In this document: one piece after another, positions 5,600 through 44,998 of the stretch
How positions within the stretch are numbered: the first letter of the stretch is position 1
How the letters are laid out: each line of letters opens with the position of its first letter
Assembly: GCA_029945665.1 (NCBI GenBank)
Contig: JAQSCZ010000114.1
Span: 2,547 to 66,546 of the forward strand
Origin: a bacterium
GTDB lineage: Bacteria; Bacteroidota; Bacteroidia; NS11-12g; UBA955
Length of the DNA: 64,000 bases
Direction: 5' to 3'
Notes under the pieces: model-generated
What the model was told of the DNA's origin: nothing
Database searches by the model: none
The model's input: the letters and a program-made list of their open reading frames with translations, nothing else
Translations under genes and position numbers: made by a program

Positions 5600-6106
5600 A
5601 TGAACGACGAAATTACTTGGAATGTTGTGTATACCTCCTCTCGTCAGGAGAAAAAAGTAGCACAACGGCTTTCTGACATGGGCGTAGAAAATTATTTACC
5701 CATCGTAAAAGTATTGAGTCAATGGAGCGATAGAAAGAAGTTAATAGAAAAGCCATTGTTTAACGGGTATGTTTTTGTTAGGCTTGTTAAAAATCCAGAT
5801 GAGGTTTTGAGAGTTACCGGTGTAGCGGGCTACTTAAAATATAACAAAAAAAATGCCGTGGTTTATCAACATGAAATTGATACTATAAAGTCGCTCATAC
5901 ATTACGGTTATGATATGACCGCCATAGATATTTCTGAAGATTTAGAAATAGGAGAAAAAGTAATGATTACAGATGGTACATTAAAGGGGCAAATTGGTGA
6001 GTTAGTGCTTAAAAATGATACAAAGTGGTTCATTATATTTTTTGAATATTTTGGAAATGGGGTGCAAGTTAAAATTCCTTCTAAATTATTAAAATCAATT
6101 AAGTGA
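5600..6106 (+). CDS. UpxY-family transcription antiterminator (NusG paralog)
   Basis: 168 residues. An N-terminal NGN domain (about 6-105) begins WNVVYTSSRQEKKVAQRL and contains the typical KPLFNGYVFVRL strand. A short KOW-like C-terminal domain follows (about 118-168, GEKVMITDGTLKGQIGEL). The family, described for Bacteroides fragilis capsule loci, travels with RNA polymerase and prevents premature termination in long polysaccharide operons. The position at the head of a run of dozens of co-oriented genes fits that role exactly. The ATG at 5600 is the first good start. Its stop overlaps the GTG of the wzm-like gene by 4 bases, so regulator and exporter are coupled. Confidence 0.88.
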   Translation: MNDEITWNVVYTSSRQEKKVAQRLSDMGVENYLPIVKVLSQWSDRKKLIEKPLFNGYVFVRLVKNPDEVLRVTGVAGYLKYNKKNAVVYQHEIDTIKSLIHYGYDMTAIDISEDLEIGEKVMITDGTLKGQIGELVLKNDTKWFIIFFEYFGNGVQVKIPSKLLKSIK

Positions 6107-6957
6107 AAGAGACATTCGATTATGAAATAGGAGCAAAAAAAAGTTTGCTAAGTTTTAATTTCAAAGAACTATGGCGATATCGCGATTTGATATCCTTATT
6201 GGTTAAAAGAGATTATGTAGCGGTATATAAACAAACAGTACTAGGCCCTGTTTGGTTTTTTATTCAACCGTTGATTACCTCACTAATTTTTACACTCATT
6301 TTTGGGAAAATTGCCAATTTAGCACCTGCTGGCGTTCCTCCATTTTTATTTTTCTTATGCGGTCAAACTTTTTGGAATTATTTTGCTTCCTGTCTGACTG
6401 CCACGTCAAATACATTTGTGGCCAATGCAAGTGTATTTGGAAAAGTTTATTTTCCGCGTTTGGCGGTTCCAATTTCTGTTGTAATATCTAACTTATTAAA
6501 ATTTTCACTTCAATTTCTAATGTTAATCGTAGTATGGGTCTATTATTATTTTGAAGGTACCTATGCCATTGAAGCAAATTTTACGCTGTTGTTAGTTCCA
6601 CTTTATTTAGTATTTATGGCCATTCTGGGTTTAGGTGCAGGTTTAGTCATTTCATCCTTAACAACACGTTATAGAGATTTTACATTTTTGGTTGGTTTTG
6701 GCGTTCAATTATTGATGTGGGCTACTCCGGTGGTTTATCAATTAGATACAATGGCTTCAAAAAATAAATTACTTGGGAAGTTGGTTACCAGTAATCCCAT
6801 GACTTCAATTCTTGAAGCTGCTAAGTATGGCTTTAACTGTGGAGGTAGTTTTCGACCAACCCTATTATTTTACAGTGCGGCCTTTGGTTGTATTTTACTA
6901 TTAATAGGAATAGCCGTTTTTAATCGTGTTGAAAAAACTTTTATGGATACAGTATAA
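6103..6957 (+). CDS. wzm: O-antigen/polysaccharide ABC-2 exporter permease (Wzm-like)
   Basis: 284 residues with about six membrane helices (clusters near 60-85, 95-130, 140-170, 180-205, 210-235 and 255-275). The N-terminus carries the typical YRDLISLLVKRDYVAVYKQT segment just before the first helix, ending in LGPVWFFIQP, a hallmark of ABC-2 polysaccharide permeases. With the next gene it forms the Wzm/Wzt exporter that flips undecaprenyl-linked glycan to the periplasm. The start is GTG at 6103, overlapping the UpxY stop by 4 bases; the stop TAA shares one base with the wzt ATG. Confidence 0.88.
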   Translation: MKETFDYEIGAKKSLLSFNFKELWRYRDLISLLVKRDYVAVYKQTVLGPVWFFIQPLITSLIFTLIFGKIANLAPAGVPPFLFFLCGQTFWNYFASCLTATSNTFVANASVFGKVYFPRLAVPISVVISNLLKFSLQFLMLIVVWVYYYFEGTYAIEANFTLLLVPLYLVFMAILGLGAGLVISSLTTRYRDFTFLVGFGVQLLMWATPVVYQLDTMASKNKLLGKLVTSNPMTSILEAAKYGFNCGGSFRPTLLFYSAAFGCILLLIGIAVFNRVEKTFMDTV

Positions 6958-8237
6958 TGAATAGAGATGTTGTAATAAAGGTCGAAAATTTAGGCAAGAA
7001 ATACCACTTGGGTGAAATTGGATCGGGCACATTTGCTGGTGAGTTGGTTCGATTTGTAAAAAACTTAAGAGGGACAAAATCAAGTGATCTGATAACAGAT
7101 AATGATAGAACTATTCAAGCAAAAAAGGGCGATATAGTATGGGCAGCAAAAGATATCAATTTTGAAGTAAAACAAGGTGAAGTACTAGGCATTATTGGCA
7201 AAAATGGCGCCGGTAAATCTACCTTACTAAAAATGCTTTCACGTGTAACGGCTCCAAGTGTAGGAAGCATTAAGGTTAAAGGTAGAATTGCTAGTTTATT
7301 AGAAGTTGGTACTGGTTTTCATCCTGATTTAACAGGCCGAGAAAATATTTTTTTGAATGGGGCCATTTTAGGGATGACTAAAAATGAAATTCGTTCTAAG
7401 TTTGATGAAATTGTTGATTTTAGCGGTGTAGCAAGGTATATTGATACGCCCGTTAAACGTTATTCTTCGGGTATGTATGTGCGTTTGGCCTTTGCAGTGG
7501 CAGCGCATTTAGAACCTGAGATATTAATTGTTGACGAGGTATTAGCGGTGGGGGATATAGAGTTTCAGCGAAAATGTTTAGGTAAAATGAAGGATGTGAG
7601 TGGCGAAGGCCGAACGGTCATTTTTGTGAGTCACAATATGGGGGCTGTTAAATCACTTTGCCAATCGGGTATCGTGATGAAAAATGGAACCATGGATTTT
7701 GCAGGCAATATCAATGATTGTGTAACACAATACCTTAGAATTAATACAACTGATAACGAAGGTGATGTAGTGATTGATAAAAAAGGAACTGGTACAGGTG
7801 AGGCATTGATTAAACGCATTCAAATGATAAATGAGGATGGCAATACTGCAGAATCTGTATTGTATAAGTCGCCAATTAAAATCAGATTAACCATAGATTC
7901 TGAAGTCGATATACCAAAAGCTTCACTAGATGTTAAAATTAGTGATAAAGACGGAAGTATTTTGTTTCATGCTTTGAATCTTTATCATAACCAAGCATTG
8001 CCATTGCAAATTGGAGAAAATATTTTTGAAACAGAAATTCACAATGATTTATTGCCAGGCGGATTTTTAGCAAGTGTTGGTGTTCATAATGCAGCTACTT
8101 ATTACACCATGGATTATCAAGAAAATATCGTCGCATTCGAAGTTATAAAGGCCGCCAAAAACGCCTTTGAAAGTTATCCTTATGAATGGGTAGTAGCACC
8201 TGCCATGGCGCAAAGTGACTGGAAAAAAATAAAGTAA
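6957..8237 (+). CDS. wzt: O-antigen ABC exporter ATPase with C-terminal glycan-binding domain (Wzt-like)
   Basis: 426 residues. The ATPase domain (1-250) has Walker A GKNGAGKS (81-88), the Wzt-type signature YSSGM (169-173) and Walker B ILIVDE (189-194). Residues 260-426 form an extra domain with beta-strand pattern (IRLTIDSEVDIPKASLDV..., then ALPLQIGENIFETEI), as in the Wzt C-terminal domain that recognises the chain end of the exported glycan. Exporters with this domain usually require a specific terminal modification, so one enzyme in the locus may make the cap. There is one nucleotide of overlap with the permease. Confidence 0.88.
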   Translation: MNRDVVIKVENLGKKYHLGEIGSGTFAGELVRFVKNLRGTKSSDLITDNDRTIQAKKGDIVWAAKDINFEVKQGEVLGIIGKNGAGKSTLLKMLSRVTAPSVGSIKVKGRIASLLEVGTGFHPDLTGRENIFLNGAILGMTKNEIRSKFDEIVDFSGVARYIDTPVKRYSSGMYVRLAFAVAAHLEPEILIVDEVLAVGDIEFQRKCLGKMKDVSGEGRTVIFVSHNMGAVKSLCQSGIVMKNGTMDFAGNINDCVTQYLRINTTDNEGDVVIDKKGTGTGEALIKRIQMINEDGNTAESVLYKSPIKIRLTIDSEVDIPKASLDVKISDKDGSILFHALNLYHNQALPLQIGENIFETEIHNDLLPGGFLASVGVHNAATYYTMDYQENIVAFEVIKAAKNAFESYPYEWVVAPAMAQSDWKKIK

Positions 8238-28988: not shown

Positions 28989-30044
28989 ATGAAAAATTCA
29001 AAAATGGTTCAGTATTATTATCTTGGCAGAGGTGCTATCAGCAACCTGCAAGAACTACTGGATATCAAAAGAACCGACGATAATAGCGATTTTGTGGTGA
29101 TGGTGGTTGATGATTATTTTGAAAATAAAAACATCATCGACTTAAGTTATCTCAAATCACAAGATTTGATAATATATGCCGATACCCGCGAAGAACCAAA
29201 AACAAGCTATGTAGATCAACTTACTAATCAAGTTAAATCGAAAGGCTATTTACCAGTAGCCGTTGTTGGTATTGGAGGTGGTAGTGCTATGGATATTGCA
29301 AAGGCTATCTCTGTTTTGTTAACAAATCCCGGTCCATCAGAAGATTACCAAGGATGGGATTTAGTTAAAAACGCACCCATCTATAAGATAGGAATACCGA
29401 CTATTGCAGGAACTGGGGCAGAATTTACAAGAACCGCAGTGCTTACTGGTCCAACTAAAAAACTGGGAATTAATTCAGATCACAGTGTATTCGATCAAGT
29501 AATATTAGATGCAGATTTATTGAAAACTGTACCCATCAATCAATTTGTTTATACTGCAATGGATTGTTATGTACACAATGCAGAATCGCTTTTAGGAATG
29601 ATAAATGATTCCATGACCATTGCATTGGCCGAAAAGGCTTCTGAACTAATTGAAGAAATATTTTTAGGAGAAATGGACCATGAAAAACTATTGGTGGCTT
29701 CATCAATGGGTGGGCTAGCTGTTGCGAATTCAAGCGTTGGTATTTGTCATCCTTTGTCTTACGGTTTAAGTATAGAACTGGGGTTGCATCATGGCTATGC
29801 CATTTGTATTGCGTTTAATCAACTCGATGAATACTATCCTCAGGTAAAGAAATTTAAAGAGATATTAAAAAAATTCAATATCACTTTACCAAAAGTAATA
29901 AACGATACCATAACAGATGAACAATTGGATAGAATGGCTGAGGCCACATTGAAAAACGAAAAGCCTTTGTCGAATGCATTTGGTCCAGATTGGAAAAATG
30001 TATTTTCAAAAGAAAAGGTCATAGAACTATTAAAAAAAATGTAA
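28989..30044 (+). CDS. kdnB: KdnB-like 3-deoxy-D-manno-octulosonate 8-oxidase (iron-containing alcohol dehydrogenase fold)
   Basis: 351 residues of the iron-dependent alcohol dehydrogenase family. It has the NAD-binding GIGGGSAMDIAKA near 96-108 and metal-ligand segments MDCYVHNAES, CHPLSYGLS and LHHGYAICI. Long stretches correspond to Shewanella KdnB as I know it: EEPKTSYVD, DYQGWDL, GTGAE...RTAVLTGP, KKLG-NSD. KdnB oxidises C8 of Kdo to an aldehyde, which KdnA then aminates. Here the next gene is a KdnA homolog, but the other neighbours are NeuA/B/C-like rather than Kdo genes, so the substrate may be a nine-carbon acid. It lies 5 bases before kdnA. Confidence 0.82.
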   Translation: MKNSKMVQYYYLGRGAISNLQELLDIKRTDDNSDFVVMVVDDYFENKNIIDLSYLKSQDLIIYADTREEPKTSYVDQLTNQVKSKGYLPVAVVGIGGGSAMDIAKAISVLLTNPGPSEDYQGWDLVKNAPIYKIGIPTIAGTGAEFTRTAVLTGPTKKLGINSDHSVFDQVILDADLLKTVPINQFVYTAMDCYVHNAESLLGMINDSMTIALAEKASELIEEIFLGEMDHEKLLVASSMGGLAVANSSVGICHPLSYGLSIELGLHHGYAICIAFNQLDEYYPQVKKFKEILKKFNITLPKVINDTITDEQLDRMAEATLKNEKPLSNAFGPDWKNVFSKEKVIELLKKM

Positions 30045-30049
30045 ATATT

Positions 30050-31216
30050 ATGCCAGGATATGAATTAATCGGAAAAGAAGAACAAGAACAATTGATGGAT
30101 ATTTTCAATACCAGCAATGGTGTTCTGTTTCCTCATGGATTTGATGCACTTAGAAACAACCGTTATCGGGTGCGCGAATTTGAAAAGAAATTTGCGGAAA
30201 AAATGGGTTCTAAATACGCCCAAGCCATCACTTCGGGCACAGTCGCTCAAGTGGTAGCCATGCTAGCCATGGGTGTTAAACCCGGTGATGAAGTGATTAC
30301 GCAGGCCTTTACTTTTGTAGCAACTGTAGAAACTATTATTGCCATTGGTGCAGTACCCGTGATAGTGGATGTCGATGATACCTATAACATGGATCCAAAA
30401 GAATTGGAAAAAGCCATAACATCAAAAACAAAATTAATTGTTCCGGTACACATGCTTGGTAACACAGCAGCTATGGATGAAATTATGGCCATCGCTGCGA
30501 AACACCAAATTGCAGTTTTAGAAGATAGTTGCGAAGCCTTGGGTGCAACGTACAATGGAAAATTTGCAGGTACCATAGGTCATGTAGGTATATACAGCCT
30601 TGATTTTGGTAAAACAATTACGACTGGAGAAGGAGGTATGATAGTAACCGATGATGAAACCATCTATAAGTTTTGTAAAGAATACCATGACCATGGGCAT
30701 GAAAGTAATCCTGCTTTTCCTAGAGGAAGAGATACCAGAACAATGGCTGGCATGAATTATAGAATGAATGAAATGCAAGGAGCTGTTGGCATGGCGCAAC
30801 TTGAAAAATTGGATACAATTTTAGCTGCCAATAGAAACAATAAAAATTATCTAGAAAAGCATATTCAAGCAGATAAAATAATATTCAGACGTTTAACGGA
30901 TGCATCAGGTGATTTAAGTGACACACTTATATTTAATTTTGAAACCCAAGCCCAGGCGTTAAAATTCGTTGATTTGTACAAAGTAGCAGGTTATGGCACT
31001 AAAAATATTCCAGATGCTATTGATTGGCATTTTACAGGTACTTGGAACCATATGTTTGCCGATGTACCCCGCTATCGCGATACATGGAAAACAGAATGGC
31101 AGCGTTCAGAAGCATTGTTATATCGATCGGTTGCTTTGCCAATTAATGTTAAAACAACCCAAGAGGCCTTGATGGAACATGTGAAGGTAATTAATCAAAT
31201 ATTAGATCAAATCTGA
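30050..31216 (+). CDS. kdnA: KdnA-like 8-amino-3,8-dideoxy-octulosonate transaminase (DegT family)
   Basis: 388-residue PLP aminotransferase with internal lysine K188 in LDFGKTITTGEGG. The start MPGYELIGKEEQ, the GVLFPHGFDALRNN block near 24-37 and HDHGHESNPAFPRGRDTR near 225 match KdnA-type rather than WecE-type enzymes. ATG at 30050 is chosen because the homologous sequence begins there; an in-frame upstream start at 29990 would run deep into kdnB. With KdnB it would replace a terminal hydroxyl by an amine. Its TGA is followed by the cytidylyltransferase with 1-base overlap. Confidence 0.8.
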   Translation: MPGYELIGKEEQEQLMDIFNTSNGVLFPHGFDALRNNRYRVREFEKKFAEKMGSKYAQAITSGTVAQVVAMLAMGVKPGDEVITQAFTFVATVETIIAIGAVPVIVDVDDTYNMDPKELEKAITSKTKLIVPVHMLGNTAAMDEIMAIAAKHQIAVLEDSCEALGATYNGKFAGTIGHVGIYSLDFGKTITTGEGGMIVTDDETIYKFCKEYHDHGHESNPAFPRGRDTRTMAGMNYRMNEMQGAVGMAQLEKLDTILAANRNNKNYLEKHIQADKIIFRRLTDASGDLSDTLIFNFETQAQALKFVDLYKVAGYGTKNIPDAIDWHFTGTWNHMFADVPRYRDTWKTEWQRSEALLYRSVALPINVKTTQEALMEHVKVINQILDQI

Positions 31217-31893
31217 TGGTTGTTGCCATAATAACAGCAAGAGCAAACTCCAAAGGACTACCAGGCAAGAACATGATGGATCTTGGTGGTATGCCGCTAA
31301 TTGAACATTCAATGAAAGTGGCTTGTGAATCAGCGGAATTTGATGCTGTTATTTTGAGTACAGATTTAATAGAGGCCATCAATTTGGCAAAAGAAAAATA
31401 TCCAAAAATAGAAGTGCCATTTGTCCGTCCCGAAAATTTGTGCGGCGATACAACTACCCATGTGGAAGTTATCAATCATTTATGTGATTATTTTGAAAGT
31501 GAAAATAGAAAAGTAGATTATTTAGTGCTATTGCAACCTACTACACCATTTCGACTTCCATCTGAAATGAATGAAGGAGTTAGCTTGTTGAAAAATGGTG
31601 CAAGTTCGGTGCTTGGCGTAACCCCTGTGATGCATCATCCAGCTGATTATTTATACAAAAATAAAGCAGGTAAAATTGAATACATTATGCCCGATTTTAA
31701 AGCGACCCGAAGACAAGATTTTCCAACAGTATATTTTAACAATGGGGCTTTCTATGGCTGCAGCTTAACGTTTTTCAAATCAACACAAAGTTTTTTTGAC
31801 TCTGAAAGTGAGCTATTGGTAATGAGTGAAAATTCATTATTTGATATTGATACAGCTTTTGATATGAAGCTAGCAAGAGCAATAATCGCTTAA
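31216..31893 (+). CDS. neuA: CMP-nonulosonate cytidylyltransferase (NeuA/PseF-like)
   Basis: 225 residues of the acylneuraminate cytidylyltransferase family. Motifs are ITARANSKGLPGKNM (6-20), a RPENLCGD loop near 74 and LLQPTTPFR near 107, with the late FNNGAFYG strand. KdsB enzymes for Kdo differ (PARYASTRLPGKP), so the natural substrate is more likely a sialic-acid-like or modified nonulosonate. It activates the sugar as its CMP derivative. It is separated from neuB by a 391-bp region holding a palindromic repeat. Confidence 0.82.
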   Translation: MVVAIITARANSKGLPGKNMMDLGGMPLIEHSMKVACESAEFDAVILSTDLIEAINLAKEKYPKIEVPFVRPENLCGDTTTHVEVINHLCDYFESENRKVDYLVLLQPTTPFRLPSEMNEGVSLLKNGASSVLGVTPVMHHPADYLYKNKAGKIEYIMPDFKATRRQDFPTVYFNNGAFYGCSLTFFKSTQSFFDSESELLVMSENSLFDIDTAFDMKLARAIIA

Positions 31894-32284
31894 TCTAATT
31901 ATAATAACCTATGTTCGGGATAACCAACTTCAATTTAATAACAGCGAAACAGCCCCAAGCTATTATCTTAAAGCAGGTTGAAGTAAATGTTCTAAAAAAA
32001 AATAGGATTAATATATTATAGCAAAATATCATTGGTAGCAAAAATATTATTTTGAAAACGAAGCTGCGGGTTGAGTCCACGAATGGCGTGAAATTTCCCT
32101 TTTTCAGGGATGAAGGGCGAGCCTGCGCGTGAAGAAAAATGGAAATTTCTCATTCGTGGTGGGCTTTTTTGCCTACTTTTTTGCCCAAACAAAAAAGTAG
32201 GAGATGAGATATGATCATTCATCATGTGGTATAATGATTTTGGAAACATTCTTAACTTGAACTCACTTTATAATAACAAGAAAA
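31894..32284. other. 391-bp gap between neuA-like and neuB-like genes
   Basis: The first 150 bp and the last 75 bp show nothing. The middle (32061-32205) is a complex palindromic element described separately. An open frame on the minus strand across it has no protein-like features and is not counted as a gene. Confidence 0.6.
32061..32205. repeat. REP-like palindromic element with two hairpins
   Basis: Hairpin 1: CCACGAATG (32077-32085) and GAAATTTCC (32090-32098) pair with GGAAATTTC (32141-32149) and CATTCGTGG (32151-32159), with a GC-rich apical region between. Hairpin 2: CCTACTTTTTTG (32172-32183) pairs perfectly over 12 bp with CAAAAAAGTAGG (32190-32201) around CCCAAA. Sequences of the second type are widespread in intergenic regions of Bacteroidota genomes, as I recall, and may be mobilised by RayT-like transposases. 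It may also act as a terminator or mRNA stabiliser. Confidence 0.65.
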
Positions 32285-33331
32285 ATGAAACCATATTTTG
32301 AAATAAAAGGAAGAAAAATAGGCTATGATTTCGATCCATTGGTAATTGCCGAAATTGGCATTAATCATGAAGGATCCTTAAAAACAGCTTTAGAGATGGT
32401 AGACGCAGCCTATGCCGCTGGGGCCGAAATTGTAAAACACCAAACCCATATTGTATCAGATGAAATGTCGGGAGCCGCTAGGAAAACGATTCCGGGCAAT
32501 GCCACTGTTTCTATTTACGATATCATGGAACGTTGTGCTTTAAATGAAGAAGAAGAGTTAGAAATGATGCGATATACCGAATCGAAAGGCATGATTTTTA
32601 TAAGCACTCCTTTCTCAAGAGCAGCGGCAGAGCGTTTGAAAAAATTTGATATACCTGCCTATAAAATTGGTTCGGGCGAATGTAATAATTACCCTTTGCT
32701 CGAACACGTTGCATCCTTTGGAAAACCAATCATTCTAAGCACTGGCATGAACACAATAGAAAGTGTAGAGAAGGCCGTTCATATTTTCAGAAAGCACAAA
32801 GTGCCTTATGCTTTATTGCACTGTACCAATGTGTATCCAACACCTCCACAATTGGTGCGTTTAGGAGCCATTGCAGAACTCGAACAACATTTTCCTGATG
32901 CAGTTTTAGGCTTATCGGATCATACTGTTAATAATTATGCTTGTTTGGGCGCAGTAGCAGTGGGTGCCTCAATTTTAGAAAGACATTTTACAGATAGTAT
33001 GAGCCGACCAGGACCTGATATTATTTGTTCGATGGATACCAAAGTCATGAGCGAATTGATTGAAGGTTCAAAGATTTTGAAGTTAGAAAGAGGCGGGCAT
33101 AAAGGTCCTGTGAGAGAAGAACAACCTACTATTGATTTTGCTTTTGCAACAGTGGTAGCTATCAAAGATATTCAAGCAGGTGAATTGTTTACTGCAGATA
33201 ATATTTGGGTGAAAAGACCAGGCACTGGTGAGATTCCAGCAGAACGTTACACGGAATTATTTGAGATGAAAGCCAAAAGTTTCATTGCCTCGGATACACA
33301 AATTAGTTGGTCGCATACTGATGCCAAGTAA
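32285..33331 (+). CDS. neuB: Nonulosonic acid synthase (NeuB family)
   Basis: 348 residues. The N-terminal TIM-barrel synthase domain contains AEIGINHEGSLKTALEMVDAA near 22-42, then GAEIVKHQTH and ISTPFS, with the metal-binding histidine in the NNYACLGAVAVGASILERHFT region. A C-terminal SAF (antifreeze-like) domain lies at about 285-345, containing RPGTGEIP. It condenses PEP with an N-acyl-mannosamine-type sugar to give a nine-carbon acid. Substrate could be ManNAc made by the adjacent NeuC-like enzyme. The first gene after the palindromic element. Confidence 0.85.
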   Translation: MKPYFEIKGRKIGYDFDPLVIAEIGINHEGSLKTALEMVDAAYAAGAEIVKHQTHIVSDEMSGAARKTIPGNATVSIYDIMERCALNEEEELEMMRYTESKGMIFISTPFSRAAAERLKKFDIPAYKIGSGECNNYPLLEHVASFGKPIILSTGMNTIESVEKAVHIFRKHKVPYALLHCTNVYPTPPQLVRLGAIAELEQHFPDAVLGLSDHTVNNYACLGAVAVGASILERHFTDSMSRPGPDIICSMDTKVMSELIEGSKILKLERGGHKGPVREEQPTIDFAFATVVAIKDIQAGELFTADNIWVKRPGTGEIPAERYTELFEMKAKSFIASDTQISWSHTDAK

Positions 33332-33380
33332 TTGTTGAACATGTTTATTAGTTTTAAAGGTTTGATACAGTGTACAGTGT

Positions 33381-33388
33381 TACCTTTG
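33381..33388 (+). promoter_or_regulatory. -7 box for the neuC-like gene
   Basis: TACCTTTG followed by CA, 32 bases before the ATG at 33421, with a TTTG at 33361-33364 as a possible but close-set -33 element. It suggests the neuC-like gene has its own transcript start. Confidence 0.55.
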
Positions 33389-33420
33389 CAAATGACAACA
33401 TCCAATTCAAAGAATTGATA

Positions 33421-34560
33421 ATGATTCAAAAAAAGAAAATAGTTTTTTTAACGGGCACCCGCGCAGATTTTGGTAAATTAAAATCGCTAATTGAAGTGGT
33501 GCTAAAAGTAGACCATTTGGAAGCACATATTTTTGCAACCGGTATGCACATGGATTCTAAGTACGGAAGAACTGTGGATGAGATTCAGAAATGTGGCTAT
33601 CCCAATATTTTCAGTTATATCAATCACCATGAATACGATAGCATGGATACGATACTATCAAAAACGATTGATGGATTTTCGGGTTATGTTAAAGAACTAA
33701 AACCAGATCTTATCATCATCCATGGTGATAGGGTAGAAGCACTTGCAGGCGCCATTGTAGGGGCCTTAAACAACATATTAGTGGCACATATTGAAGGGGG
33801 TGAAGTTTCTGGCACCATCGATGAACTGATTCGACATGCAGTAAGCAAAATGAGTCATGTGCACTTTGTGGCCCATGATACTGCCAAAGCGCGATTGTTG
33901 CAAATGGGTGAAGTGCCCGATTCTGTCTTTGTTATTGGTTCTCCCGATGTCGATGTGATGCTTTCCGATAGGTTGCCAACTTTGGAGCTTGTGAAAGATT
34001 ATTATGAAATAAAGTTTGATAAGTATGCTATGGTGATGTTCCATCCAGTAACAACAGAATTCGATCAGATTTATGATCAGGCGAATAATTTAGCCGATGC
34101 TTTAATTGAATCTGGTAAAAATTATGTAGTGGTATTTCCCAACAACGATATGGGCAATGATTATATTCTGAGAAGTTTTAAAAAATTCCAGAATAATCCC
34201 AAATTTGTGGTGTATCCATCATTGCGCTTTGAGTATTTCTTAATTTTACTTAAACATGCAGAATTTATTATAGGAAATTCAAGTGCCGGCATTCGCGAGG
34301 CTCCATATTATGGCGTACCAACAATTAATATTGGCAGTCGTCAGAATAACCGTGCCTTAGGTCGCGATATGATAAATATTGACTATGATATGGCTTCAAT
34401 TTTGGGAGCAATTAAAACGGCTAATAGCAAAAAATTAGAACCTATCAGACATTTTGGAGAAGGTAAAAGCGATGTGTTATTTATGAGTGAATTAAAAAAA
34501 GATTCATTTTGGAAAATTCCAAAGCAAAAGTATTTTCTAGATTTCAGTAAATCAATATGA
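33421..34560 (+). CDS. neuC: UDP-GlcNAc 2-epimerase, hydrolysing (NeuC/LegG-like)
   Basis: 379 residues from the ATG at 33421; an earlier in-frame start at 33370 would lie upstream of the promoter box. It has the NeuC-type opening VFLTGTRADFGKL, then ATGMHMDSKYGRT, HGDRVEALAGA and the late GNSSAGIREAPYYGVPTINIGSRQ block. Hydrolysing epimerases of this group release ManNAc (NeuC) or a 4-amino analogue (LegG) plus UDP. No LegB/LegC dehydratase and aminotransferase are nearby, so ManNAc is the simpler product. Ends in ATGA overlap with the next gene. Confidence 0.83.
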   Translation: MIQKKKIVFLTGTRADFGKLKSLIEVVLKVDHLEAHIFATGMHMDSKYGRTVDEIQKCGYPNIFSYINHHEYDSMDTILSKTIDGFSGYVKELKPDLIIIHGDRVEALAGAIVGALNNILVAHIEGGEVSGTIDELIRHAVSKMSHVHFVAHDTAKARLLQMGEVPDSVFVIGSPDVDVMLSDRLPTLELVKDYYEIKFDKYAMVMFHPVTTEFDQIYDQANNLADALIESGKNYVVVFPNNDMGNDYILRSFKKFQNNPKFVVYPSLRFEYFLILLKHAEFIIGNSSAGIREAPYYGVPTINIGSRQNNRALGRDMINIDYDMASILGAIKTANSKKLEPIRHFGEGKSDVLFMSELKKDSFWKIPKQKYFLDFSKSI

Positions 34561-35918
34561 TCTTAAACAGCCTTTATGTTTTCTTTCATTATGCCTTTTT
34601 TGTTTGTGCCTATCAATTGGGTATAAAAAAGGGCTCTAAAATCAATTATTCGGGAAAAAGTTTAGTTGATAGGCCTCAAGGAAGCCATAGACTTATAGAT
34701 GGCAATCAATTGGGTTTATTAGTCATCCCAATATTTTATTATAGGTTATTATTTAATATTTTCCTTTTGCCATCTAAAAAAGTTTCTGTTACTCAGGACA
34801 ATGGTATTGGGTTGTACGATGAGGCCAACAGTGAAACCCCAAGATTGGATTTTATTCATAAAATGTCGGGGCAAATTCCGGGAATATACATTAATAAGCA
34901 AGAGCTTATGAATTATGAATTACCGACTGGTATCAAGTTAATATTGGGCGTAATTTATTTTTGGATTTGTTTGTTGTTATTGCCATTCACGTTGTCCAAA
35001 AACAGACAATTATATGCTTTACTAATTCATGAAATATATGAGTTATCTGTTTTATTTGTGATTGTTAAAAAACATAAAATTAAACATTTATATTATTCTT
35101 GCATTTTTGAAAAAGACTCTAATGCAGCAACCTATCTATTACAAAAGAAACATATTTATGTTACTAAAAATCCATCTGAAGATCCTTTGTACTTTCACAA
35201 TCAATTTATAATAGCAGATGAGTTGGGAATTTGTAACCCTTATCAATGGGAGGAATTGGAGGCATATAGTTCAAGCATTTTTGTTAAAAAATTCAATCAA
35301 TGGTTACCTGAACAATATGAACCATTGTTAACACAAAATTTAGACCAAGGGGATGGTAGTAATAAAAATGTCATTGGGTATTATTCAGGCGCATCTTGGT
35401 TAAATAAACACCTAAAAAATAATTTAACCTCGGATGCCTATAATCCTTATAAAGCAGAAGAAGAGCTAATTACATATCTTGCGGAGTTTTTAAAAAATAA
35501 CACAAAATTAACGCTTAAGATTTTTTTACATCCTTTGGAAAAGAAAGTAGAGTATATAGAATTAAGTAGAAAGCATTATAGCGATAAGTTCCAAGGTACA
35601 AACTATGAAGTTGCAGATATAACCAAATCTAATTATGAAATGTTCAATGAATGTAACATAGCAATTACAATATTTTCTGGATTAATGATTTATAGATTTT
35701 ACAGGGGCCTTAAGGGCATCTTTTACAATCCTTATTTCCCTAATTATCCCCTACATGGAAGTACTTTCGCCAAAATAAGCTCAAAAAATAGGGAACAATT
35801 ATTTAGCCAAATAAATGAAATACATTCCATGAACAATGAAGATTTTAATATTATTAAACTGAAGGGGATGTATCAATGGGAGAAAGTACTGAATGAAAAG
35901 AATGTTCTTTTGAATTAA
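34557..35918 (+). CDS. Unassigned GT-like protein coupled to the nonulosonate genes
   Basis: 453 residues. I do not recognise the family. There are hydrophobic segments near 5-20 and 125-150. The second half has a GT-B-like pattern: NVIGYYSGASWLNKHL near 275, then LKIFLHPLEKKVEY with an HP pair near 325, then NIAITIFSGLMIYRFYRGLKGIFYNP near 365. Bacterial sialyltransferases and polysialyltransferases carry an HP motif followed by a Ser/Thr motif, so a role as the nonulosonate transferase is a reasonable guess from motif and from the 4-base overlap with neuC. Not certain. Confidence 0.5.
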   Translation: MILNSLYVFFHYAFFVCAYQLGIKKGSKINYSGKSLVDRPQGSHRLIDGNQLGLLVIPIFYYRLLFNIFLLPSKKVSVTQDNGIGLYDEANSETPRLDFIHKMSGQIPGIYINKQELMNYELPTGIKLILGVIYFWICLLLLPFTLSKNRQLYALLIHEIYELSVLFVIVKKHKIKHLYYSCIFEKDSNAATYLLQKKHIYVTKNPSEDPLYFHNQFIIADELGICNPYQWEELEAYSSSIFVKKFNQWLPEQYEPLLTQNLDQGDGSNKNVIGYYSGASWLNKHLKNNLTSDAYNPYKAEEELITYLAEFLKNNTKLTLKIFLHPLEKKVEYIELSRKHYSDKFQGTNYEVADITKSNYEMFNECNIAITIFSGLMIYRFYRGLKGIFYNPYFPNYPLHGSTFAKISSKNREQLFSQINEIHSMNNEDFNIIKLKGMYQWEKVLNEKNVLLN

Positions 35919-37208: not shown

Positions 37209-37823
37209 ATGATAACTATTGTAAATTACGGTTTAGGAAATCTGGGAAGCATAGAAAATATGTTAAAGAATTTAGGACTTACAGAAGTCCGGGTATCTTC
37301 TAATCATGAAGAAATTCTTAATTCAGATAAATTGATTTTACCTGGAGTCGGTGCGTTTGATGCTGGAATGGAGAGAATAGTCGACAGTGGTCTTATACAA
37401 GCATTAAATACTGCTGTATTAATTGATCGAAAACCAGTTTTAGGCATTTGTCTTGGAATGCAATTAATGTGCAATGGAAGTGAAGAAGGAAAACTTAATG
37501 GACTAGGTTGGATTGATGCGGATGCCGTTAAATTTAATTTCGACAGCTTTGAAATGAAGGTTCCACACATGGGCTGGAATTATGTCAATGTGTTAGATAA
37601 AGGCTTAGAAATGTGTTTGCCAACCCCATCAAAATTCTATTTTGTGCATTCTTATTTTGTAAAATGCAAAAGAAAAGAAGATGAAATAATAACATGTAAT
37701 TATGGTCACGAGTTTGTTGCAGGGTTTAAAAAAGATAATATAATGGGTGTTCAGTTTCATCCTGAGAAAAGTCATAAATACGGCTTGGCCATATTAAAAT
37801 ATTTTACTGACGATAACTTATAA
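37209..37823 (+). CDS. hisH: HisH-like glutamine amidotransferase (glycan amidotransferase subunit)
   Basis: 204 residues of class I glutamine amidotransferase. Cys81 in GICLGMQLMC is the nucleophile, the oxyanion strand LPGVGAFDAG lies near 44-53 and the His/Glu of the triad are in QFHPEKSH near 187. It supplies ammonia from glutamine through the HisF-like partner. With HisF2 and a WbpG-type protein downstream and no other his genes, the role is in sugar amidation as in Pseudomonas O5 and pseudaminic acid loci, not histidine synthesis. Confidence 0.82.
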   Translation: MITIVNYGLGNLGSIENMLKNLGLTEVRVSSNHEEILNSDKLILPGVGAFDAGMERIVDSGLIQALNTAVLIDRKPVLGICLGMQLMCNGSEEGKLNGLGWIDADAVKFNFDSFEMKVPHMGWNYVNVLDKGLEMCLPTPSKFYFVHSYFVKCKRKEDEIITCNYGHEFVAGFKKDNIMGVQFHPEKSHKYGLAILKYFTDDNL

Positions 37824-37836
37824 ACCAAAATAAGCT

Positions 37837-38613
37837 ATGCTACAATCCCGCGCAATTCCATGTTTGCTTTTAAATGAAAATGGTTTATATAAAACTATTC
37901 GGTTTAAAAATCCGCAATATATAGGCGACCCTATAAATGCGGTAAAAATATTTAATGAAAAGGAAGTAGACGAATTAATGGTTCTTGATATTACAGCAAC
38001 GAAACAGAAGCGGGAACCTAATTACGAACTATTAAAAAATATGGCTAGTGAGTGTTTTATGCCTTTGGCTTATGGAGGAGGGATTACCAATTTTTCACAA
38101 GCAGCTAAGTTATTTGAAATTGGGATTGAAAAAATAGCTATAAATTCTATTGCAACTAGTAGACCAGAATTAATAACAGAAATTACTAAAGTATACGGCA
38201 GTCAAAGTGTAATTGTGAGCATTGATACTAGAAAGAATTTATGGGGTAAATATGGCATTTACATTGATGGGGGTTCAAAAAATACAGGACTAGATTTATT
38301 TGATTATTTAAGAAAGGTAGAATCAATAGGCGCAGGCGAATTATTGATAACAGATATAGATAGGGAAGGCACTTGGAGTGGTTTTAATCTTGAACTCTTA
38401 ACATCAATTACCTCATCAGCTAGAATACCTGTAATTATTAGTGGAGGATGTGGAAGTTTGAAGGACATTGTTGATGCTGTTATTATTGGAAAAGCAAGTG
38501 GTGTAGCAATTGGTAGCATGGCCGTTTTCCAGAAAAAAGGAATGGGTGTATTGTTAAGCTTTCCAAAAAGTGCCGAACTTGAAAAGATTTTGGATAAAAG
38601 TGGGAGCCATTAA
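37837..38613 (+). CDS. hisF: HisF-like cyclase homolog lacking Asp11 (HisF2 type)
   Basis: 258-residue TIM barrel. The N-terminus reads PCLLLN where true HisF has PCLDV, so catalytic Asp11 is Leu11; Asp130 is kept in VIVSIDTRKN. Both residues are needed for imidazole glycerol phosphate formation, so that reaction is unlikely. HisF2/WbuZ proteins in O-antigen loci keep the barrel as an ammonia tunnel between HisH and the N-acetyl sugar amidotransferase. Phosphate-binding loops GGG and SGGCG remain. 13 bp after hisH. Confidence 0.83.
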   Translation: MLQSRAIPCLLLNENGLYKTIRFKNPQYIGDPINAVKIFNEKEVDELMVLDITATKQKREPNYELLKNMASECFMPLAYGGGITNFSQAAKLFEIGIEKIAINSIATSRPELITEITKVYGSQSVIVSIDTRKNLWGKYGIYIDGGSKNTGLDLFDYLRKVESIGAGELLITDIDREGTWSGFNLELLTSITSSARIPVIISGGCGSLKDIVDAVIIGKASGVAIGSMAVFQKKGMGVLLSFPKSAELEKILDKSGSH

Positions 38614-38654
38614 TAAATAAAATAGAATTTAACTAGTGTAAAACGAAAACAAAT

Positions 38655-38813
38655 ATGTGTGGATTATTAGCCTATTTTCAAAAACAACCATTCGATAGAA
38701 CCACGATAAATGACATCTATCAATCACTTCAATTAATCAATCACCGAAGCCCTGATGCTGAAGGTGCTATGCTCAATGAAATTACCAATTTACTAATGAA
38801 GGAAGTTGGGTAA
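38655..38813 (+). pseudogene. asnB: Truncated asparagine synthase (52-residue N-terminal fragment)
   Basis: An ORF of 52 codons beginning MCGLLAYFQ with Cys2 and continuing INHRSPDAEGAML, the match to NHRGPD-x-EG of AsnB glutaminase domains (Gly replaced by Ser). It then ends in an unrelated-looking tail and TAA. The remaining roughly 550 residues are absent: the next gene starts at 38901. It is a remnant of an AsnB gene between hisF and the WbpG gene, probably left when the amidotransferase or next asnB was inserted. Confidence 0.7.
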
Positions 38814-38900
38814 ATCTCAAACAATGAATTTATCAATTATTCAGTTGCCACATAACTGAATAAGCATAGATGACAGAGATTACACTATTACAAAATTAAT

Positions 38901-40046
38901 ATGACAATAAAGAAACAAGAAATTATTGAGTGTTCTCATTGTGTGCTCGATACACATGACGATCCAACAATGACATTTGATGCCAATGGTGTATGTAATT
39001 ATTGCAGAAATTATAAAAAAAACTATGTAGATAATGCAATCACTTTAGAGGAAAAAAGGCAAATATTAGAGCGTCAGTTAAACCTCATCAAAAACGCTAA
39101 GAATGGCCCTTACGATACAATACTTGGGGTGTCCGGAGGTGTCGACAGTACCTATGCAGCCTATGTTTGTAAGCAATTGGGTTTAAATCCGCTTTTGGTG
39201 CATTTTGACAATGGGTGGAACAGTGAACAAGCGGTTAGCAATATTGAACAAATCACAAAGAATACGGGTTTTGATTTATACACCTATGTTGTGGATTGGC
39301 CTGAATTCAGAGACCTACAACTTGCTTATATCAAAGCGTCTGTGTTGGACTGGGAAATACCATCGGACCATGGTTTTTTTGCCATATTGTATCGACTGGC
39401 AAATAAATTTAATATCAAATACATTTTAACAGGCCACAACCATCAAACAGAAGCAATTCTGCCTAAAACTATGCGCCATAATAAAATGGATGTAGACAAC
39501 ATCATTGACATTCATAAACAATTCGGAAAGTTGCCTATAAAAACGTATCCATTATTAGGTTTTTGGAGATTCAATTACTATCTAAGGATAAAGAAAATTG
39601 AACGATTCAATTTACTCGAATATATTGAAGAATATAATAAAGACAAGGCAAAACAAATCATAATTAAAGAAATGGGATGGAAGGATTATGGCGGTAAGCA
39701 CTATGAATCAATTTTTACAAGATTTTATCAGGGGTACGTTTTAAAAGAAAAATTTGGATTTGAAAAGAGGAAAGCACATCTCGCCAATCTTATTTGCAGT
39801 GGTCAGATTACCAAGGAAGAAGCAAAAGCTGAATTAGCTTTGCCGGTTTACAATGAAACAGTTTACAAAGTTGACAGGAATTTTGTACTTAAAAAACTTG
39901 GTTTAAATGAAGAGCAATTTCAAGCCATGATGAACGAGCCAGTGCGTTCACATCTGGAATTTAAATCTTATATGAAAGGTTTGTACCTAAAGCACGAAAA
40001 ATTCATGCGTACGATAAAACCGATAACAAAATTATTTAAAAAATAA
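38901..40046 (+). CDS. wbpG: N-acetyl sugar amidotransferase (WbpG/PseA-like)
   Basis: 381 residues. A zinc-knuckle-like N-terminus has C11, C14, C32 and C35 (CSHC, CNYC), and a PP-loop SGGVDST at 78-84 binds ATP. The family converts an N-acetyl group to N-acetimidoyl (acetamidino), using ammonia from HisH via HisF, for ManNAc3NAmA in Pseudomonas and acetamidino-pseudaminic acid in Campylobacter. In this locus the acceptor could be the nonulosonate made by the cassette at 29-34.6 kb or another amino sugar. Both options are inference. Confidence 0.86.
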   Translation: MTIKKQEIIECSHCVLDTHDDPTMTFDANGVCNYCRNYKKNYVDNAITLEEKRQILERQLNLIKNAKNGPYDTILGVSGGVDSTYAAYVCKQLGLNPLLVHFDNGWNSEQAVSNIEQITKNTGFDLYTYVVDWPEFRDLQLAYIKASVLDWEIPSDHGFFAILYRLANKFNIKYILTGHNHQTEAILPKTMRHNKMDVDNIIDIHKQFGKLPIKTYPLLGFWRFNYYLRIKKIERFNLLEYIEEYNKDKAKQIIIKEMGWKDYGGKHYESIFTRFYQGYVLKEKFGFEKRKAHLANLICSGQITKEEAKAELALPVYNETVYKVDRNFVLKKLGLNEEQFQAMMNEPVRSHLEFKSYMKGLYLKHEKFMRTIKPITKLFKK

Positions 40047-44215: not shown

Positions 44216-44998
44216 ATGAAAATATTAATTCTAACATCCGCTTTAAATGGCACAGCTGCTCATCATTTAGAAGTTATATTGAAGGAGCCAAGTATTCAGG
44301 TTGTAAGTGTCATTTATAGTCAAGGAGCTCCAAAATCTTTCTATAAAAAGGCCTTTCAGAAATTTAGAAAAATTCTTAAAATCGGTTTATTAGGCGCTTT
44401 AAACGGTATAAAAATGCGAAAATGGTACCATGAAGATGTTTCAAAATATGTTAAAATACAAAATTTAGAAGACTTGTGCAAAGCAAATAGGGTGCCTTTT
44501 AGTAAAACAATGAGTATCAATTCTGAAGATACTATTGAATTGTTTAAAGCATCTGGTGCTGAAATAGGAATAAGTTTAGGCAATGGCTATATTACCAATA
44601 AAATATTTACAATTTTACCAGAGGGTATGTTAAATATTCACCATGAAATTTTACCAGAATTTCAAAATGCCCAAAGTGTAATATGGCAAATTTATAATGG
44701 CTCCAATAAAACGGGTTATACCATTCATAAAATCAACAAGAAAATTGATACAGGTGAAATTTTATACCAAAAAGAATTGCCCATCATTTTCAAAGGGACC
44801 CTTGCAGAGACTGTGTCAGCATCCTATGCAGAAGTATTGAAACAATCTGCAATTGGGCTTGTTACAGTTTTGAAGGATTATAGGTTTTTTTTAAAATCTG
44901 CGGTTGTTCAAAGGGTTGGTCATACCTACACAACACCTAGTTTTACTCAATTTTTGAAAATGAAGAGGCAATTTAAAAAATTAATAAATACAATTTAA
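44216..44998 (+). CDS. Sugar N-formyltransferase-like protein
   Basis: 260 residues of the methionyl-tRNA formyltransferase fold. The catalytic triad is recognisable as Asn140 and His142 in NIHHEILPEF and Asp178 in IDTGEIL. It lacks the C-terminal tRNA-binding domain of Fmt and matches the size of sugar formyltransferases that act on amino sugars, with N10-formyl-tetrahydrofolate as donor. Acceptor unknown; the deacetylase upstream may create the amine. Directly followed by wecB (TTG right after the stop). Confidence 0.8.
   Translation: MKILILTSALNGTAAHHLEVILKEPSIQVVSVIYSQGAPKSFYKKAFQKFRKILKIGLLGALNGIKMRKWYHEDVSKYVKIQNLEDLCKANRVPFSKTMSINSEDTIELFKASGAEIGISLGNGYITNKIFTILPEGMLNIHHEILPEFQNAQSVIWQIYNGSNKTGYTIHKINKKIDTGEILYQKELPIIFKGTLAETVSASYAEVLKQSAIGLVTVLKDYRFFLKSAVVQRVGHTYTTPSFTQFLKMKRQFKKLINTI

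Follow-up and report, generated by a model that had tools for sequence, protein, structure and literature searches.

The genes of the locus

The DNA analyzed here, a stretch of 64,000 nucleotides to which we refer as the window, lies in a surface-polysaccharide locus; five genes, all running in one direction between positions 28989 and 34560, encode homologs of KdnB, KdnA, NeuA, NeuB and NeuC. We consider it likely, from the sequences and their comparison, that they specify the synthesis of a nonulosonic acid (NulO) with a terminal amine for a surface polysaccharide. Flanking genes were assigned by reading the open reading frames (ORFs); this places O-antigen-type ABC-transporter genes at 6103-8237 and many glycosyltransferases in the window. 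The first three genes of the cassette almost overlap, with a gap of 5 bases between KdnB and KdnA and one base shared by KdnA and NeuA (TGATG), and are followed by NeuB and NeuC; ORF coordinates and homology thus bear out the gene run described in the initial annotation, which was made from the DNA letters alone (Table 1).

KdnB has as its closest solved homolog the 'Kdo 8-oxidase' of PDB 5k8c (E 2.5e-101), the next match being an unrelated iron-dependent alcohol dehydrogenase (6e-20), and its metal ligands D192, H196, H254 and H268 are present in 92 of 92 aligned KdnB rows. It is the sole KdnB of its genome, and plasmid and viral searches with it found no relative. KdnA matches PF01041 with 287 bits and is closest to the '8-amino-Kdo transaminase' of PDB 5k8b (E 1.1e-81, versus 1.9e-56 for the next structure); by motif, K188 is the lysine that binds pyridoxal phosphate (PLP). 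These structures are of the Shewanella oneidensis enzymes (Q8EEB0), which convert 3-deoxy-D-manno-octulosonic acid (Kdo) to 8-amino-Kdo, the one reaction for which this enzyme pair is known; C8 of 8-amino-Kdo resonates at 44.4-44.8 ppm in NMR (PMC6357163). The window pair shares with them the enzyme families, the metal ligands, the adjacency of the genes and, as we propose, conversion of a terminal CH2OH to CH2NH2 ahead of CMP activation, but has NeuA and NeuB rather than KdsB and KdsA as partners.

The cytidylyltransferase is, in agreement with the initial annotation, of the CMP-NulO type and not KdsB: it scores 135.6 bits with the PseF model, below the cut-off of 205.7, versus 26 bits with the KdsB model, and it matches NeuA structures in the PDB. 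In the tree the cassette NeuAs form a clade (support 98/97), split from KdsB at 100/100, which groups with neither KdsB nor the second NeuA of the genome. NeuB aligns over its full length with Neisseria meningitidis SiaC (504 bits, E 1.7e-150), keeps the KRPG motif and the SiaC active-site context, contains the Pfam NeuB and SAF domains, and reaches 382.5 bits with TIGR03569, just under the cut-off of 399.65. NeuC scores 410 bits with TIGR03568 (cut-off 235.9). A grouping of NeuA and NeuB with Kdo-type enzymes, named at the outset as an outcome that would speak against a NulO product, is thus seen neither in the model scores and the SiaC match nor in the NeuA tree. In combining NeuC and NeuB with a CMP-NulO transferase at a surface-glycan locus, the window recalls the N. 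meningitidis-type NeuC-NeuB-NeuA pathway; it differs in joining the oxidase and aminotransferase genes to NeuA.

The genome further encodes a second NeuA and a second NeuB (G000:C124:2636, L032; G000:C59:16820, L135, respectively); this NeuA adjoins a CBS-nucleotidyltransferase-like gene, an arrangement known from legionaminic loci. A second nonulosonate is therefore probable.

A NulO-linked branch of KdnB and KdnA

A scan of a collection of species genomes yielded 80 named KdnB loci, to which 12 were added, giving 92; neighbors were counted within 5 kb. This survey, which the initial annotation had suggested, divides the loci sharply: NeuB lies near KdnB in all 10 intact loci of what we term the NulO branch and in none of the 81 others, and KdsA or KdsB in 51 of the 81 but in 0 of the 10. 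Since many of the 81 are close relatives of one another, they do not count as independent cases. Neither NeuB nor KdsA/KdsB lies near the other 30, at least one of which (L036) adjoins a candidate Kdo transferase, as judged by reading.

The NeuB-linked KdnBs form one clade (support 100/99) in two trees. The first of these had long branches (window 1.21, L030 2.08); the denser tree, from which L030 was left out, had none and retained the clade. One specific alternative placement was rejected by the approximately unbiased (AU) test (p 0.0045). Four positions separate the groups without exception, namely A244, P255, P326 and L327 in the 11 NulO-branch sequences versus S, A, L/M and W in the 81 others; the window KdnB has A, P, P and L and none of the residues common outside the branch (S244, A255, L/M326, W327). 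P255 directly follows the metal ligand H254. The cassette KdnAs likewise form a clade of their own (100/100), apart from all 34 KdnAs of other loci and not inside the Kdo-type KdnAs, and the alignment contains about 20 fixed differences between the two sets, the single exception at each position being the cassette KdnA of L124, counted with the Kdo group. In both enzymes the window pair is thereby set apart from the Shewanella pair. Evidence that KdnB/KdnA include a distinct branch linked to NulO genes is new here.

After the four-residue signature had been fixed, 395 further genomes were searched with a model built from the NulO branch. Among 21 new KdnBs one carries the signature (L146, in G732), and its neighborhood (L167), read afterwards, encodes KdnB, a DegT aminotransferase, a CMP-transferase/PseG fusion, SpsF and NeuB. 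The other 20 lack the signature, and 13 of these have KdsA or KdsB inside 1.5-kb flanks. As the search model came from the branch, finding one of its members is unremarkable; the linkage to NeuB is the actual test. The signature offers a way to separate the two enzyme branches in genome annotation.

Two further arrangements were observed in these surveys. In a second type of NulO locus (L099, L130, L131, L061, L167) a NulO-branch KdnB occurs with PseG-like, SpsF and NeuB genes and, in some cases, a DegT gene, and there is no clear KdnA; in L099, L130, L131 and L167 the PseG-like protein includes a CMP-transferase-like part as a fusion, and a conserved protein of 440 amino acids (aa), of unassigned family, follows NeuB in L099, L130, L131 and L061 but not in L167. 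In L055, L057, L067 and other Flavobacteriaceae, KdnB lies near KdsB with no KdnA within 10-kb flanks, the aminotransferase being encoded elsewhere or missing.

Kdo genes in the genome

The initial annotation had noted that kdsA and kdsB are absent. This holds for the window but not for the genome, in which kdsB (contig C109) and kdsA (contig C8) both exceed their cut-offs. Kdo is therefore available in the cell, and we rejected the missing kds genes as an argument for a nonulosonate product, which must rest on something else. Within the order, kdsA was found in 105 of 108 genomes (87 over the cut-off) and the window-type KdnB in 8 of 108; set against near-universal kdsA, this makes the window-type KdnB an accessory glycan trait. 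The scattered absences in relatives (no kdsA over the cut-off in G454, no kdsB over the cut-off in G449 and G451) look like assembly gaps.

Conservation of the cassette and replacement of the synthase

We compared the neighborhoods of seven relatives, one of which (L124) is a short contig that breaks off within KdnA. The order KdnB-KdnA-NeuA-NeuB-NeuC is kept in L123, L125, L126 and L127. The first three genes of these four are joined by gaps of 3-4 bases and overlaps of 1-4 bases, with KdnA and NeuA overlapping by 1-4 bases. Recurrence of the same order in four relatives, with such short gaps and overlaps, indicates that the arrangement is more than chance.

In L128 and L129, KdnB, KdnA and NeuA are kept (72-77%, 71-72% and 53-54% identity, respectively), but NeuB and NeuC of the window type are lacking; the same tight run contains instead a KdsC-like phosphatase of the haloacid dehalogenase (HAD) superfamily and a 291-aa NeuB without the SAF domain. 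The phosphatase has PDB 3e81, a Bacteroides thetaiotaomicron enzyme, as its closest match and scores 161 bits with the NCBIfam model for KDN-9-phosphatase (NF058599; cut-off 180), KDN being the nine-carbon deaminated sialic acid, versus about 139 bits with KdsC models. It retains the Glu and Lys at the positions changed to Ala in 4hgq and 4hgr, residues which, in the work of Lu et al. 2009, are said to distinguish KDN-9-phosphate from Kdo-8-phosphate phosphatases. In B. thetaiotaomicron, KDN is made via phosphorylated intermediates with such a phosphatase (PMC6200933). L128 and L129 thus resemble that pathway (Kdn-9-P synthase, phosphatase, CMP-Kdn synthetase) in having the same type of phosphatase and a short NeuB beside a CMP transferase, and differ from it in adding KdnB-KdnA upstream.

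Since the synthase is swapped while KdnB-KdnA-NeuA stays, the amination set tracks whichever NulO synthase is present and not the Kdo genes. Furthermore, amination would have to follow NeuB in L128 and L129, because a phosphate at C9 would block the terminal oxygen until it is removed.

The proposed pathway and its alternatives

By strong homology, NeuC would convert UDP-N-acetylglucosamine (UDP-GlcNAc) to N-acetylmannosamine (ManNAc), which NeuB would condense with phosphoenolpyruvate (PEP) to give N-acetylneuraminic acid (Neu5Ac). Based on the chemistry of the homologs at C8 of Kdo and on the comparisons above, the NulO-branch KdnB would then oxidize the C9 hydroxyl, the only primary alcohol of Neu5Ac, to an aldehyde, and KdnA would aminate it to 9-amino-9-deoxy-Neu5Ac. 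NeuA would activate the product as CMP-9-amino-9-deoxy-Neu5Ac for transfer into an O-antigen or exopolysaccharide. In L128 and L129 the same three enzymes, fed by the NeuB without SAF and the KDN-9-phosphate-type phosphatase, are predicted to yield 9-amino-9-deoxy-KDN. The window cluster therefore probably makes a 9-amino sialic acid. The wider proposition, that one branch of KdnB/KdnA has shifted its target from Kdo to nine-carbon sugars and, with a dedicated CMP transferase, underlies natural 9-amino-9-deoxy sialic acid and 9-amino-9-deoxy-KDN, we hold with somewhat less assurance, though still as more likely than not.

The initial annotation had weighed a 9-amino nonulosonate against 8-amino-Kdo plus a sialic acid. 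In the latter case two pathways would lie side by side, with KdnB/KdnA making 8-amino-Kdo from the Kdo of the cell and NeuC/NeuB/NeuA a plain CMP-sialic acid. That the closest characterized homologs act on Kdo, and that kdsA and kdsB exist in the genome, is in keeping with this, but we regard it as unlikely: KdnB and KdnA both fall outside the Kdo-linked groups in the trees, KdsA/KdsB lie beside none of the 10 NulO-linked loci, KdnB-KdnA-NeuA remains together as the NulO synthase changes, with KdnA and NeuA overlapping, and the window-type KdnB is confined to a few genomes despite the almost universal kdsA. The clades, the synthase swap and the NeuB-linked locus predicted by the signature favor the 9-amino product; from them we infer its substrate and identity.

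The same product might instead be reached in another order, if KdnB/KdnA worked at C6 of ManNAc ahead of NeuB or took CMP-Neu5Ac once NeuA had formed it. The sequence of steps cannot be read from gene content alone, and KdnB-KdnA adjoins NeuA in cassettes both with and without NeuC; yet the characterized relatives use the free keto acid, and the phosphatase of L128 and L129 implies a C9-phosphate until after NeuB, making a six-carbon precursor unlikely there, so that we think such an order improbable. Least probable of all is that KdnB/KdnA travel with the NulO genes because they act on a different primary alcohol, for instance on some other nucleotide sugar that enters the repeat unit. Many further sugar genes are present at the locus, and in the second type of NulO locus the partners of the NulO-branch KdnB are PseG-like genes and another DegT; but across the swaps NeuA and a NulO synthase are the constant neighbors while the surrounding glycosyltransferase genes vary, and the substrate of the known reaction is a 3-deoxy-2-keto acid.

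Some observations weigh against amination of a nonulosonate at C9. Besides the availability of Kdo, all cassette loci come from one bacterial family and hence represent few independent events, and NeuB, NeuA and the variant phosphatase score under some curated cut-offs. Moreover, the sister group (Chlorobium, an alphaproteobacterial metagenome-assembled genome and G732; including L061 and L167) has no clear KdnA and carries PseG- or SpsF-like genes. This group may make a different, perhaps 9-deoxy, sugar, and its KdnB may have another function; if 9-deoxy sugars are indeed made by this group, its KdnB cannot act at a C9 hydroxyl.

Each element is already known, namely the action of KdnA/KdnB on Kdo, the Neu5Ac pathway and the KDN pathway; what is new is their combination. 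9-Amino sialic acids are familiar as synthetic analogs. In the open-access literature searched we found no report of a natural 9-amino NulO, only synthetic analogs or unrelated compounds, in line with the earlier remark that such a sugar was not known to be described. If correct, the proposal would extend the sialic acids by a class not reported before, in which the side chain bears a free amine and ends in a positive charge, a feature that should matter to sialidases, lectins and phages recognizing C7-C9, and the oxidase-aminotransferase-CMP-transferase set could be used for making 9-amino sialosides.

Spacer and neighboring genes

Table 1. Features of the window discussed in the text
Feature	Coordinates	Strand	Basis
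Fe/Zn alcohol dehydrogenase of the KdnB type, NulO-linked branch; proposed to oxidize C9-OH of a nonulosonate	28989..30044	+	PDB 5k8c match, clade, metal ligands, signature
KdnA-type DegT PLP aminotransferase, NulO-linked branch; proposed C9 aminotransferase	30050..31216	+	PDB 5k8b match, clade, fixed differences
NeuA-like CMP-nonulosonate cytidylyltransferase; proposed to activate the aminated sugar	31216..31893	+	PseF versus KdsB models, PDB NeuA matches, tree
NeuA-NeuB spacer with dispersed non-coding repeat, outside the pathway	31900..32280	.	Genome matches, spacers of relatives
NeuB N-acetylneuraminate synthase with SAF domain	32285..33331	+	SiaC match, Pfam NeuB + SAF, TIGR03569
NeuC hydrolyzing UDP-GlcNAc 2-epimerase, ManNAc supply	33424..34560 (ATG start; alternative GTG start 33370)	+	TIGR03568
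453-aa protein, 4-base overlap with NeuC; weak candidate transferase of the CMP-activated sugar	34557..35918	+	HPxEK motif, recurrence
HisH-, HisF- and WbuX-type amidotransferase genes	37209..40046	+	WbuX TIGR03573, 287.6 bits versus 203.2 cut-off
Formyltransferase-like ORF; possible acylation of an amino sugar in the same glycan	44216-44998

The NeuA-NeuB spacer of 391 bases is peculiar to the genome of the window; it measures 0-18 bases in L123, L125 and L126 and 143 in a fourth relative. The repeat in it matches 37 places in the genome, chiefly through query bases 165-305, and most of the matches are less than 180 bases long; the relatives lack the insertion.

The 453-aa protein encoded after NeuC matched no Pfam or NCBIfam family. 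Homologs lie beside the cassette in L123, L124 and L125 and directly after NeuB in L167 (E 2e-71). It may be the transferase of the CMP-activated sugar, but as its structure models are poor (mean predicted local distance difference test scores, pLDDT, of 52 and 60) and the best fold matches are weak and GT-B-like, none with E <0.001, this role stays a guess.

Amidotransferase sets of the HisH/HisF/WbuX type are known from amidine-bearing sugars, and the genes in the window could possibly, though uncertainly, serve to form an amidine at a later stage on a sugar within the same glycan. Similar trios occur beside the cassette in L123, L125, L126 and L129, and near KdnB in the Chlorobium locus L130.

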